Shown one piece after another: positions 5,653 through 50,145 of a stretch of DNA of 64,000 bases. Numbering within the stretch: the stretch's first letter is position 1; each line of letters begins with the position of its first letter. The notes under the pieces are model-generated. The model had not been told where the DNA came from and ran no database searches. It saw only the letters and a program-made list of their open reading frames with translations. Position numbers and translations under genes: made by a program. The DNA lies in the NCBI GenBank assembly GCA_021561035.1, contig CP067346.1:3689001-3753000 (forward strand). Direction: 5' to 3'. This DNA is from Clostridioides sp. ES-S-0054-01 (GTDB lineage Bacteria; Bacillota; Clostridia; Peptostreptococcales; Peptostreptococcaceae).

Positions 5653-5988
5653 TTATCCTTGAGCTAATTGATGTTTCTTGTAAGTTATTAATGCTAACTT
5701 CATAACTGTAGCTCCATCCATTTTTCCATAAACATCTTTATCTATTACTGCAAAAGGTTTATTTTTTGGCTCTAATATTCCTTTTAAGAAATCTATTTTG
5801 TGAGCTATTTGAGGACCTATAAGTACTATATCCCAATCATCAACCTCACTTTCTATTGAATCTGCTGGTATAGCTGTAAATTCAAAATCTTTTTCATTAA
5901 GTTTAGTACTTTCTTTTACTACCTTCTTCATATTTTGCATTAGCATATTAGTAGAAAATCCACCTGCACAACATAATAATATTTTCAT
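5653..5988 (-). CDS. PTS lactose/cellobiose-family EIIB
   Basis: This 111-residue protein starts MKILLCCAGGFSTNML, the P-loop-like phosphocysteine motif of CelB/LicB-type EIIB domains. Cys6 or Cys7 is the likely phosphorylated residue; two adjacent cysteines and an extra residue before the Ser-Thr make the exact assignment uncertain. It passes phosphate from EIIA to the sugar held by EIIC. It lies 31 bp before the EIIC gene, with AGGAGG upstream of the ATG. The 99-bp gap to the EIIA gene is the largest inside this operon, and no terminator is evident there. Confidence 0.9.
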   Translation of the reverse strand: MKILLCCAGGFSTNMLMQNMKKVVKESTKLNEKDFEFTAIPADSIESEVDDWDIVLIGPQIAHKIDFLKGILEPKNKPFAVIDKDVYGKMDGATVMKLALITYKKHQLAQG

Positions 5989-45532: not shown

Positions 45533-47422
45533 TTATAATAGCTTTTCAAGTTCAGCTACTAAACTGTCAAATTTTTTGATTGTATTTTCTATAGGTTTTG
45601 TATTAGTTAAATTTATGCCACTTGATTTTAATAAGTTTATTGGATAATCTGAACTTCCCTTTTTAAGGAAGTTTATATAGTTATCTGAACCATTTTTTAG
45701 TATATCTTGGGCAAAACTTACTCCTGCACTACAACCTGTAGCATATTTATAGACATAGAAACTATTATAAAAGTGTGGGATTCTAGCCCATCCGACCTTA
45801 GATAATTGGTCTAATTCATAGTTTTGTCCATAATATTTTTTAAGAAGTTGTCCCCAAACATCATTTAATACTAATGCATTTACACTTTTTCCTTTTTCTA
45901 CTAACTCATGTATAGTTTTTTCAAATTCAGCATACATAGTTTGTGTATAAAGAGTGTCCTTTATCAAGTCTAAATATTGTGTTATATAATAAGCTTTTTC
46001 ATCATTACCTTTAGCCTCTCTTATAAGCATCTCATAAAGCAATGCTTCATTAGTTGTAGATGCAACCTCATGAGTAAATATAGACGGATTTGAATTAAAA
46101 TAATTCTGATTCTTAGAACTTAGGTATTCGTATACAGCATGACCAAGTTCATGTGATAAAGTTGAAACTGAACCTAATGAATTATTATAATTTAAAAGTA
46201 TATATGGATGATTTTCATAAACAGATAAGCAGTATCCACCACTTACTTTATTTTCATGTGAATAAACATCTATCCATTTTTCATTGAAAGCTTTATACAC
46301 TACATCATTGTATTCTTTTCCTAAAGGTGACAACGCTGAGTATACTATACTTTGTGCCTTTTCATAATTAATATTATTATCAGCAGTCTTAACTATAGGT
46401 ACAAACATATCATATGAATGAACCTTATCTAATTTTAATACCTTTTTTCTTAAATCTATATATTTGTGTAGACTGTCCATATTGCTATTTACAGTCCTTA
46501 TTAAATTATTGTATACTTTTTCATCTACATTATCAGATTCCAAATACATTTCTAAAGAAGACTCATAACCTCTCTCTTGAGAATAAAAAATATTCTTTTT
46601 CACTTGACCAGTAATCAAACCTGCAATTGTATTTACATTATCATTGTAAGTTATAAGTTCATCTTGATAAGCTTTTTTCCTATTTTCTCTATCTGATGAT
46701 TCTAATTCACTTGCATATTGAGCTGGTGTCAAATTAGTTTTTCTATCCATATTCCTAAATAATTCATAAACTTGACTTGGAAGACTACTTATTGAAGACA
46801 CTTTGCTTAGGATGTCTTCTGACTTATCATCCAAATAATGTACTTTATTTCTTCTTATATCCCTTAAATATGCACCATATTTCCTATTTATATTTTTATT
46901 TGAAATAATTTTCTTATAATCTTTGTTTGATAATTTTAATATCTCTAATTCTAAATCCGAACAAATCCCCATATAGTTGCCATAGGATTTACTCATAGTA
47001 TCATTCATATCTAAATATTTATATGAATTTTTATTAGTATCTTGTTTTAATTTTACATAGGCAGAAAGTCTATTTAATCTTATATCAAGCTTTTCCTTGA
47101 TATTTAAGGCAAAAGACAAATGTGTTGGTGATTTTGTTACTTTACCTATGTAATTTTTTAATTCTTTAGTATCTTTATCAAAACTCTTAAGTTCTTTTTT
47201 CCATTGGTCATCACTTTTAAATAAAGATTGTAAGTTCCAACATGTTTTTTCATAATCTATTTCTTGTTTTTTTTCAGCATCATCTTCAGTATCATTATTC
47301 ATGACAGTAACTGCTCTATCATTATTCTTTTGATATCCTTGGTCAGCTTTTATACTTATTATTAACATGCAAAAAATAGAAATAAATAAAGGTATTATTG
47401 CTTTGCACAATTTTCTATTCAT
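45533..47422 (-). CDS. M3-family oligoendopeptidase (PepF-like) with N-terminal export/anchor segment
   Basis: This protein of about 629 residues has the M3 zinc site in TLSHELGHAVYEYLSS (HExxH) and a downstream Glu in FTHEVASTTNEALL. The upstream helical PepF domain is intact. Unlike ordinary cytosolic PepF, it starts with MNRKLCKAIIPLFISIFCMLIISIKA, a positively charged head plus hydrophobic core, followed by a polar linker with an acidic run. It is therefore probably secreted or membrane-tethered, cutting oligopeptides outside the cell. The ATG at 47422 is chosen because AAAGGA lies 9 bases upstream. A hairpin covers that ribosome site. Confidence 0.9.
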   Translation of the reverse strand: MNRKLCKAIIPLFISIFCMLIISIKADQGYQKNNDRAVTVMNNDTEDDAEKKQEIDYEKTCWNLQSLFKSDDQWKKELKSFDKDTKELKNYIGKVTKSPTHLSFALNIKEKLDIRLNRLSAYVKLKQDTNKNSYKYLDMNDTMSKSYGNYMGICSDLELEILKLSNKDYKKIISNKNINRKYGAYLRDIRRNKVHYLDDKSEDILSKVSSISSLPSQVYELFRNMDRKTNLTPAQYASELESSDRENRKKAYQDELITYNDNVNTIAGLITGQVKKNIFYSQERGYESSLEMYLESDNVDEKVYNNLIRTVNSNMDSLHKYIDLRKKVLKLDKVHSYDMFVPIVKTADNNINYEKAQSIVYSALSPLGKEYNDVVYKAFNEKWIDVYSHENKVSGGYCLSVYENHPYILLNYNNSLGSVSTLSHELGHAVYEYLSSKNQNYFNSNPSIFTHEVASTTNEALLYEMLIREAKGNDEKAYYITQYLDLIKDTLYTQTMYAEFEKTIHELVEKGKSVNALVLNDVWGQLLKKYYGQNYELDQLSKVGWARIPHFYNSFYVYKYATGCSAGVSFAQDILKNGSDNYINFLKKGSSDYPINLLKSSGINLTNTKPIENTIKKFDSLVAELEKLL

Positions 47423-47471
47423 AAAAAGCCATCCTTTCAATAAATTTACTTAATAATAGGATGGCTTTTTT
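47423..47471 (-). promoter_or_regulatory. Terminator-like hairpin overlapping the pepF-like ribosome site
   Basis: On the minus strand AAAAAGCCATCCT (47470-47458) pairs perfectly with AGGATGGCTTTTT (47435-47423), and the last T abuts the ATG. The right arm contains the AAGGA ribosome site. The structure looks like an intrinsic terminator whose U tract touches the start codon, so it could stop transcription or hide the ribosome site. Confidence 0.7.
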
Positions 47472-47523
47472 CAGATATATTATTCAATTATTCATACTAT
47501 ATAAATAAATATCGAATTAATAG

Positions 47524-47758
47524 TTATCCACATAATAATCAACATATTCACAGGTTTTCTTTGTATAGAAATTTAGTTATTTCAACATGAATCTCTTTTG
47601 ATAATAGCTTTTGTTTTTTCTTTTTTTACATTTTATTAACATTTCTGCCATACTTATCAACAATTTTTGTTGATTTATATGTTTTTTTTGTTAATAACTA
47701 TACTTTTTTCAAAAGTCTATTAACATATTATACACAAGTTATCCACAGTTTATACACA
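47524..47758. other. DnaA-box cluster between spoIIE and the pepF-like gene
   Basis: Perfect TTATCCACA boxes occur at 47524-47532 and 47739-47747; TTATACACA occurs at 47728-47736 and 47750-47758; TTATCAACA occurs at 47654-47662. All are in the same orientation. The last three boxes start at 47728, 47739 and 47750, an exact 11-bp spacing, so they sit on one face of the helix. The surrounding 230 bp is very AT-rich. No dnaA or dnaN gene is nearby. Confidence 0.7.
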
Positions 47759-47772
47759 TAATTTTGTAAACT

Positions 47773-50145
47773 TTATTTTGTACATATTTTCGTAACTAAA
47801 ACAGTCATGTCATCTTCGATTTGTAACGCTTGTAACTCTAATGCTCTATCTAATATTAAATTTGATATTTCCTTTGGATTTGTAGTCTCTATATTCTTTA
47901 AGAAGTATATTAACCAATTATCTCCTAAATTGTTATTTCTTCCTGCATCTACAATTCCATCAGAAACCATTATAACATAGTCTCCTTCCTTAACTTTTAC
48001 ATTTTTTCTATCAATTTTTACATCTGATAATATACCCACAGGCAATGATGATGATGATATTAAATCGACTTCTCCATCCTCTCTTTTTATATAAGTAGAA
48101 CACGCTCCCATCTTTATAGTTTCTAAACAGCCTCGTTTTAAATCTAAAATTCCTAAATCCAGAGTTGAAAACATCTCTTCTGAAGACTTTAATAGCAACA
48201 TATTATTTATAGTATCAATAACTATTTCGTCTTTAATTTTTGCATCTATCATTTTTTCCAGTATATCAATAGTGGCAGAAGATTCTTCATATGCTTTTTT
48301 ACCTTTTCCCATACCATCACTTATAGCCATCATATACTTACCATCATTTATCTCCATGTATGTGTAATTGTCTCCACAAAGAATATGTCCATCCCTTGAC
48401 ATCGCTGAAACTTCTGTTACAGCCTTATATTTTTGAGATTTAACGAATGTTGCCTTACATTTACCTCCTAAACAATGGCACCCTATTTTTCTAACAGACA
48501 TATTTTCACCTACTAGGTCTGAAATTATATTTACAATTTTATCTTCACACATGCATCCATCATGGCAAGTTTTCTTTTCTATTGATATTTCAAATTCACT
48601 GTTACTCTTTGTTAAGTAACTTACTTTATCAACTGTTATGTCATATCTTTCTAACTGCTCATATATATTTTTTTCCTTTTCTATATCCAGCATTATATCG
48701 CCTTCTAAATCTTGGGATAGCGATTTAATTGATTTTGAAATACTTCTTATCTGATTTGCTATTAACTTTCTACTTTCTGAAAACTTCACACTCCAATCAT
48801 AATCTAATACAAACATCTTGTAATAGTGATTTGATATTTTCACTATTGACTCTGGTTTCATACATTCCTTTCTAAAATTTTTAGGTATATCGTTTAGACT
48901 TAACTCTCCTTTCTCCTCAATTTTTTCAAGAATGTTATATATCATAGTGTATGTATGATTAAATCTTGATTCCCAACACATTCTTCTCATACTACAACTT
49001 TTACATTCATCATTATGAATCATATCTATTACATTAGCTATATCTCTTTGGTCTAACACCTTATCTTTTTCTCTTATCTTATCAAATGTATCTGCAAGGT
49101 CGTCGTAAGTTTTATAAATACTATTCAATCTACTATTAGTTAGATTCTTGCTTCTCATAATATAATCGTATACGATTTCATTTGAAGCTACATTACTTTT
49201 TATTAATTTTTCAATCTTATTAAATAACCTCTCTGGCAACACTATAACTATTAAACAACCCAATAGTATATCTCTTAATTGCATCATATTAGAAGTAATA
49301 CCAGAAGTATATAGGTATATTATTATCCAGCTTAGAATATATCCTAGTATACAGAAATATTTATTTATTTTATTAAATGCACCACTTATTAATCCTGAAA
49401 AAGAATATATCCCCATATAAATAGCTGATGTCATATTATTTAAAATGGATGCTACCCCAATAATTACACCACTAGATGCTCCCATGGTAGCTCCACCTAC
49501 TATGGAGGTCAGTAATATCAATACTGTTGATAAAATGGTCCTTATTGATATTCCAAACAAGGATATATCACCTATCCCCATTATGCTAAAGGTCAGCAGT
49601 AAACTTATTGAGATAGCTTCTTCTGTCCGTACAGACATCCTATTGTTGACATTGGCCATTAAACCTATCCCATAAGAAAACACATATATAGATATAAACA
49701 TTATTATTGCTTCTACACCTGCTATAAGAAGATTGTACGTATACCTATTTGAAAAGAAAGCTTGTCCCATGGAAATTGGAAGTAATATCATTGCACCTAT
49801 AAATGCTACCTTAGCAATTGAATCTGATAATTTTAATTTCTTATTCATCGCCATAAATATTGTAAGGCACACAGCATATTTTGCTACATTTCCAAAATCA
49901 TTAGATGATAACAATATTCCTAATAATGTTGATATGAATACAGGTATCTTGTACTTATCAATCTTTGATGCACATATAAAAAATGCAATTCCTAAGGGAG
50001 CTACAGAGTCTACTATAATAGACCTACTAAGTAAAAATCCCATTACGGCGAATGCCGCCGTAGTAAAATCAATATATCCGCTTATTAATTTTATGACATT
50101 TGGTTTTACAGTTTTATTCTTCACAACTGCTACACTTCTTTGCAT
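47773..50145 (-). CDS. spoIIE: Stage II sporulation protein E
   Basis: This 790-residue protein has about ten N-terminal transmembrane helices (residues 15-310), a central regulatory region with a Cys cluster (HNDECKSCSMRRMCWE), and a C-terminal PP2C phosphatase domain (about 575-790) with GDNYTYMEINDGKYMMAISDGMGKGKKA and VIMVSDGIVDAG, whose Asp residues bind the metals. In sporulating Firmicutes SpoIIE dephosphorylates the anti-anti-sigma factor SpoIIAA and so activates sigma-F in the forespore. AGGAGG precedes the ATG but sits within a hairpin. Confidence 0.96.
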   Translation of the reverse strand: MQRSVAVVKNKTVKPNVIKLISGYIDFTTAAFAVMGFLLSRSIIVDSVAPLGIAFFICASKIDKYKIPVFISTLLGILLSSNDFGNVAKYAVCLTIFMAMNKKLKLSDSIAKVAFIGAMILLPISMGQAFFSNRYTYNLLIAGVEAIIMFISIYVFSYGIGLMANVNNRMSVRTEEAISISLLLTFSIMGIGDISLFGISIRTILSTVLILLTSIVGGATMGASSGVIIGVASILNNMTSAIYMGIYSFSGLISGAFNKINKYFCILGYILSWIIIYLYTSGITSNMMQLRDILLGCLIVIVLPERLFNKIEKLIKSNVASNEIVYDYIMRSKNLTNSRLNSIYKTYDDLADTFDKIREKDKVLDQRDIANVIDMIHNDECKSCSMRRMCWESRFNHTYTMIYNILEKIEEKGELSLNDIPKNFRKECMKPESIVKISNHYYKMFVLDYDWSVKFSESRKLIANQIRSISKSIKSLSQDLEGDIMLDIEKEKNIYEQLERYDITVDKVSYLTKSNSEFEISIEKKTCHDGCMCEDKIVNIISDLVGENMSVRKIGCHCLGGKCKATFVKSQKYKAVTEVSAMSRDGHILCGDNYTYMEINDGKYMMAISDGMGKGKKAYEESSATIDILEKMIDAKIKDEIVIDTINNMLLLKSSEEMFSTLDLGILDLKRGCLETIKMGACSTYIKREDGEVDLISSSSLPVGILSDVKIDRKNVKVKEGDYVIMVSDGIVDAGRNNNLGDNWLIYFLKNIETTNPKEISNLILDRALELQALQIEDDMTVLVTKICTK

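Follow-up and report, generated by a model that had tools for sequence, protein, structure and literature searches.

A conserved cluster of DnaA boxes between spoIIE and pepF as a candidate oriC-proximal scaffold for tuning replication initiation

Clusters of DnaA boxes outside the replication origin of Bacillus subtilis were reportedly described by Okumura et al. in 2012. Deletion of six such non-oriC clusters leads to early initiation of replication (PMC5295017 and PMC13220808). In Escherichia coli, the datA locus near oriC promotes hydrolysis of DnaA-ATP, and the cores of DARS1 and DARS2 each consist of three boxes, one of them opposed, with equal spacing at both loci (PMC5742627). According to a 2026 review, B. 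subtilis has neither datA nor DARS, and whether this organism has regulators that balance DnaA-ATP and DnaA-ADP is stated to be unknown (PMC13220808). Clostridioides difficile is reported to have no homologue of YabA or Rok (PMC7561715).

In this report, we analyze a group of DnaA boxes between spoIIE and a pepF-type gene of Clostridioides sp. ES-S-0054-01, located in a window of 64,000 nucleotides that spans 3,689,001-3,753,000 of the genome (by window, we mean the whole stretch of DNA that was analyzed). On the basis of sequence comparisons, we propose that this noncoding, oriC-proximal cluster is a scaffold for DnaA and that it holds back or adjusts the initiation of replication, and we assign this proposal a probability of about 0.6.

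Boxes of the cluster and their chromosomal setting

The interval between spoIIE and pepF (47441-47772) is noncoding and has a GC content of 20%. It contains four exact matches to TTATNCACA (shuffle mean, 0.08) and seven matches to TTATNMACA (shuffle mean, 0.22), and none of 20,000 dinucleotide shuffles gave a count as high in either case. A preliminary description of this DNA listed five boxes in one direction within 235 bp, and all five are found on the plus strand: TTATCCACA at 47524 and 47739, TTATACACA at 47728 and 47750, and TTATCAACA at 47654. Re-reading also bore out the exact 11-bp steps between the boxes at 47728, 47739, and 47750. The count of five, however, missed further boxes in the same 235 bp, at 47633 and 47689, as well as weaker ones at 47536 and 47544 (Table 1).

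Table 1. Features of the spoIIE/pepF cluster, its neighbors, and related clusters. Positions refer to the window or, for companion clusters, to the genome
Feature	Position	Strand	Remarks
pepF-type oligoendopeptidase gene	45533..47440	-	TIGR00181, 524.2 bits; cluster directly upstream
DnaA box TTATCCACA	47524..47532	+	Cluster anchor, offset 0
Weak box TAATCAACA	47536..47544	+	Offset +12; other genera often have TTATNMACA here
Weak box ATATTCACA	47544..47552	+	Offset +20; common to several genera
Spacer motif TTTAGTTATTTCAA	47572..47585	.	Offset +48; no DnaA box
Box TTATTAACA	47633..47641	+	Offset +109
Box TTATCAACA	47654..47662	+	Offset +130; 21 bp past the +109 box
Inverted box TTATTAACA	47689..47697	-	Offset +165
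Exact boxes TTATACACA/TTATCCACA/TTATACACA	47728..47758	+	At 47728/47739/47750, 11-bp steps; offsets +204/+215/+226
spoIIE	47773..50145	-	TIGR02865, 628.8 bits; cluster follows its 3' end
spoIIE/pepF cluster			7 boxes (TTATNMACA)
oriC1			7 boxes; at dnaA
oriC2			6 boxes; at dnaA; DnaA-trio adjoining
Cluster in dnaB-purA interval	3902850-3903086		5 boxes, partly within a small ORF; 22 kb from oriC; dnaB/purA by model
Cluster upstream of 16S rRNA gene (by reading)	147864-148113		6 boxes: three TTATCCACA and three TTATAAACA; 148 kb from dnaA
Cluster upstream of hpf-/secA-like genes (by reading)	195482-195702		4 boxes; tandem TTATCCACATTATCCACA
Cluster in G057			Offsets 0, +20, +108, +129, +164 inverted
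Cluster in G058			Offsets 0, +20, +105, +149, +162 inverted
Cluster in G059			Offsets 0, +20, +108, +129, +165 inverted

Single boxes are not enriched, either genome-wide (237 occurrences of TTATNCACA versus 241 of the reversed motif) or, when one mismatch is allowed, within the 64-kb window (125 observed, 122.6 expected). It is the clustering of boxes, and not their number, that is unusual. The genome-wide count against chance that the preliminary description had proposed as a check supports this: same-strand pairs of exact boxes 0 to 30 bp apart give four matches at three places in the genome, and the reversed pattern gives none. Across the family, such pairs occur in at least 66 of 71 genomes, and the reversed control has at least 13 matches in 12 genomes. 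The TTATNMACA pattern, like the triple and spacer-motif patterns introduced below, was picked after the family data had been seen. Therefore, the reversed-motif controls carry more weight than the raw counts.

The genome is a single contig of 3,925,358 bp, with dnaA at the start of the record. Because the cluster lies about 189 kb from dnaA and oriC, it is not oriC, yet it is oriC-proximal. That it is not the ordinary origin had been proposed before, and this view holds, with oriC1 and oriC2 (with DnaA-trio) flanking dnaA at that distance. We searched the 456 kb around oriC for at least four TTATNMACA boxes in 300 bp and found six clusters: oriC1, oriC2, and four non-oriC clusters, including the one at spoIIE/pepF. 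By the same criterion, none was found in 400 kb of control sequence (1.8-2.2 Mb). The core pair of the cluster upstream of the 16S rRNA gene and the tandem TTATCCACATTATCCACA of the cluster upstream of the hpf- and secA-like genes are each found in all eight genomes of the genus. Far from oriC, between genes that read as queA- and ruvB-like, two exact boxes and three variants form a less compact group (2935570-2935751).

In oriC2 of this genome, TTATTAACA and TTATCAACA stand directly before the DnaA-trio, and this trio matches that reported for C. difficile (PMC7561715). These variants are therefore likely to be real boxes in this lineage. With seven boxes in AT-rich DNA, as many as in oriC1, the cluster might itself be viewed as a second or relic origin. 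We rejected this candidate for its missing DnaA-trio: nothing like the trio of oriC2 is present at the cluster, where one T-rich run alone fits a loose trio pattern. Given also that a bipartite oriC is present at dnaA, we regard an origin at this location as scarcely conceivable.

The distance from dnaA to the cluster could be determined in 18 genomes with long contigs, directly in 10 and by assuming that the contig closes on itself in 8, and ranges from 124 to 267 kb. In the four Clostridioides genomes and G013, the cluster is on the left arm; the 13 remaining genomes have it on the right arm. This steady distance fits an early-replicating element, but synteny alone may explain it.

Conservation and spacing across genera

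Of 71 genomes of the family, 54 have a long SpoIIE match, and 53 of these were examined (G009 was excluded because its contig ends inside spoIIE). In 49 of the 53, at least three TTATNMACA boxes occur in 300 bp, no more than 500 bp after spoIIE. The mean is 5.5 boxes per 500 bp after spoIIE, versus 0.26 for the reversed motif, which forms no clusters in these 53 genomes; the genomes in such counts are not independent, and eight belong to one genus. Boxes after spoIIE are also found in Metaclostridioides mangenotii, Romboutsia maritimum, R. timonensis, Faecalimicrobium dakarense, and Asaccharospora irregularis. The four genomes with fewer than three boxes are G016, which has two, and G046, G047, and G051. 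Loss of boxes in close relatives that keep the flanking sequence, which the preliminary description had named as evidence against a DnaA-related function, was not seen, and all eight genomes of the genus retain the seven boxes. Outside the family, 19 order-level genomes had a spoIIE 3' flank that could be read, and in none of them does such a cluster follow the gene (20 loci were sampled, and G088 was dropped because it has no downstream sequence).

To compare spacing, we counted offsets from the pepF-side TTATCCACA (offset 0) in 56 genomes of 18 genera, that is, the 53 genomes above and three without spoIIE. Offsets of G045, G050, g7, and g16 were not used where automatic anchoring misplaced or missed rows. 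Boxes recur across genera at +12 and/or +20, at +109, at +130, and, inverted, at +165. Of the 56 genomes, 45 (from 16 genera) have a 21-bp pair, 31 (from 12 genera) have a 12-bp pair, and 24 (from 9 genera) have a 35-bp inverted pair. The combined spacing of 107-111 and 21 bp is found in 30 of 56, and 11 genera have +109 and +130 to within 2 bp, frequently accompanied by boxes at +12 and, inverted, at +165. Spacings, including the 21-bp pair, vary in some genera (g7, g16, and g37). Judging from these alignments, the conserved core is composed of the modules 0/+12/+20 and +109/+130/+165. The 11-bp array, which was emphasized in the preliminary description, is present in all eight genomes of the genus, but in other genera is placed elsewhere or partly missing; it is less conserved than the two modules, and the emphasis was misplaced.

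An exact triple (box, 21 bp, box, inverted box) gives 28 matches in 25 of the 71 family genomes, and its reversed control gives none. The spoIIE/pepF-type locus accounts for 23 of the 28. Four of the five remaining matches were read: three are between dnaB- and purA-like genes in g11 (M. mangenotii and its kin), and the fourth, in g6, is next to a dnaB-like gene (gene names by reading). The fifth is in G049. The dnaB/purA-type cluster of g11 has the same geometry of box, 21 bp, box, 35 bp, and inverted box, at a place similar to that of the dnaB-purA cluster of this genome. Among 391 class-level genomes sampled, 9 contain the triple, and 6 of these are outside the family.

When seven genera are stacked without gaps, boxes have an identity of 0.85, compared with 0.52 for spacers and 0.38 for the left flank. 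The value for boxes is inflated, since the genera were selected for having boxes at 0, +109, and +130, and masks slid by one base still give 0.81. These values bear on an alternative in which the cluster is a passive sink for DnaA, the number of boxes alone counts, as has been proposed for the B. subtilis clusters, and the geometry simply follows from slow divergence. Box number and strength do differ among genera, yet some cluster is retained, and in B. subtilis, one cluster reinserted at various places partly restores timing (PMC5295017). However, the spacings recur in 9 to 16 genera despite the divergence of the spacers, a comparison that carries a selection bias on three of the boxes. Because fixed spacing favors a structured complex, we consider a passive sink unlikely, while granting it appreciable weight.

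The spacer between the modules contains a conserved motif. Its consensus is found with at most two mismatches at +47 or +48 (or +39 in G085) in 25 of 53 genomes. In G084 and G085, the spacer is shorter, and the motif is still 61 bp before the next module. Shuffled spacers contain a match as good, at any position, in 137 of 5,000 cases. We rejected a promoter at this motif, as sigma-70-type promoter matches in the region number 5, versus 5.6 expected by chance. Since the motif is no DnaA box, the locus might instead be bound by a different protein or be an RNA gene, and merely resemble a group of DnaA boxes. The boxes, however, differ chiefly in positions 5 and 6, where DnaA boxes tolerate variation, and M. 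mangenotii has exact boxes at the places where weak boxes stand here. Moreover, 46500-49000 contains no Rfam match at or above the gathering score, on which ground the RNA gene was rejected. We regard this explanation as highly improbable.

Neighboring genes and the genus without spoIIE

The gene order in Clostridioides is ppx-spoIIE-cluster-pepF-galU. In the genus g34, spoIIE is absent; the profile gives 24.9-36.7 bits in G057, G058, and G059, versus a cutoff of 490.8. In all three of these genomes, the cluster is located between ppx and galU, and no pepF is present at the locus (ppx and galU were identified by model in G057 and by reading in the other g34 genomes). In g6, by contrast with this retention, the cluster is at galU in none of the eight genomes (of nine) with a readable galU, and a ppx-like gene adjoins galU in seven. 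In g7, g16, and g37, a different ORF follows the cluster, often in convergent orientation (by reading).

These arrangements bear on whether DnaA regulates transcription of pepF at this site, or has control over spoIIE or over termination of that gene. Such control is suggested by the position of the cluster in the window, directly upstream of one gene and downstream of the other, and by the fact that DnaA of B. subtilis controls genes such as sda (PMC4447404). Opposing it are the g34 loci, the varied ORFs of g7, g16, and g37, and a promoter count that is not above chance. Because the cluster persists without spoIIE and without pepF at the locus, regulation of these genes is unlikely as a conserved role and was rejected as such; in any form, we consider this explanation quite doubtful. 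Coupling to sporulation through spoIIE, which the preliminary description had suggested, is not supported, as the boxes lie beyond the 3' end of spoIIE, and the three g34 genomes lacking this gene all keep the cluster. Since the cluster is kept where both neighbors are missing, it probably contributes to the timing of chromosome copying rather than controlling sporulation.

Retention in g34 together with absence in g6 indicates that neither spoIIE nor pepF as such is the reason for keeping the cluster, and that it can be lost. Likewise, the 4 of 53 family genomes with fewer than three boxes, the 8 of 8 readable g6 genomes without the cluster, and its absence from all 19 order-level genomes indicate that it is dispensable over longer times.

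Two other observations concern these loci. On the minus strand, a hairpin at 47423-47470 (-20.4 kcal/mol, z -4.7; 1 of 200 shuffles is as stable) is followed by T's, with an ATG at 47422. It encloses the likely Shine-Dalgarno sequence of pepF, and AGGATGGCT is visible in all seven stacked genera. The hairpin could be a terminator or a lock on the ribosome site. Also, in G057, whose genome has no spoIIE, an HU-like gene (95.5 bits, below the cutoff of 157) is located at 5693-5971 of locus L145, just upstream of ppx and a few hundred bases to 1.5 kb from the cluster.

Proposed role and comparison with known systems

We consider it very likely that DnaA binds the cluster, and a role in replication initiation is likely. 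In the mechanism we propose, DnaA would bind the modules 0/+12/+20 and +109/+130/+165 and the 11-bp array, and the bound DnaA would form one structured complex of fixed shape, perhaps bent over the fixed-length spacer. Duplication of the cluster soon after initiation would withdraw or inactivate DnaA, so that less would be available to oriC. Early re-initiation would thereby be held back, jointly with the three other oriC-proximal clusters. The complex might act by binding alone, or by changing the nucleotide or oligomer state of DnaA. A more specific and rather speculative version of the latter, which we rate as improbable, is a geometry-dependent switch in which DnaA assembled on the modules, perhaps with a bend imposed by another protein at the +48 motif, would change its nucleotide or oligomer state; in this Gram-positive lineage, the Peptostreptococcaceae, the cluster would then be the counterpart of datA or DARS.

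Our search of open-access full text found no description naming this cluster, and no paper joining DnaA boxes with spoIIE. A compact, rigidly spaced scaffold near oriC, together with its three companions, offers a concrete hypothesis for how initiation is limited in this family.

Compared with the origins of C. difficile, oriC1 and oriC2, the cluster has the same box types, including TTATTAACA and TTATCAACA (PMC7561715). Unlike them, it has no dnaA/dnaN context and no DnaA-trio beside its boxes, and therefore does not have the characteristics of an oriC.

The E. coli elements provide partial parallels. Like datA, the cluster is noncoding, is near oriC, is duplicated early, and has several boxes in one direction (PMC5742627). 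Unlike datA, it has one inverted box. Also, datA requires an IHF site, and B. subtilis is said to be without IHF (PMC13220808). A titration or datA-like role, which the preliminary description had considered, is plausible: it would agree with a location near oriC, with retention in many genera, and with the rigid geometry. The comparison with the DARS core concerned box orientation, and one box opposes the other two in 24 of 56 genomes; the cluster has many more boxes than that core. A DARS-like role, based on three boxes with one inverted, is only an analogy.

Like the non-oriC clusters of B. subtilis, which are mostly intergenic, this cluster has several DnaA boxes outside oriC, grouped beyond chance, and it is oriC-proximal (its distance from dnaA in 18 genomes, with contig closure assumed for 8, is 124-267 kb). 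Unlike this cluster, the eight strongest regions listed for B. subtilis are all located away from spoIIE, ppx, and galU. Fixed spacing across genera is a feature of the cluster described here. The scaffold is of the same general kind as the B. subtilis clusters and datA, but it sits at a new place and has a fixed geometry.
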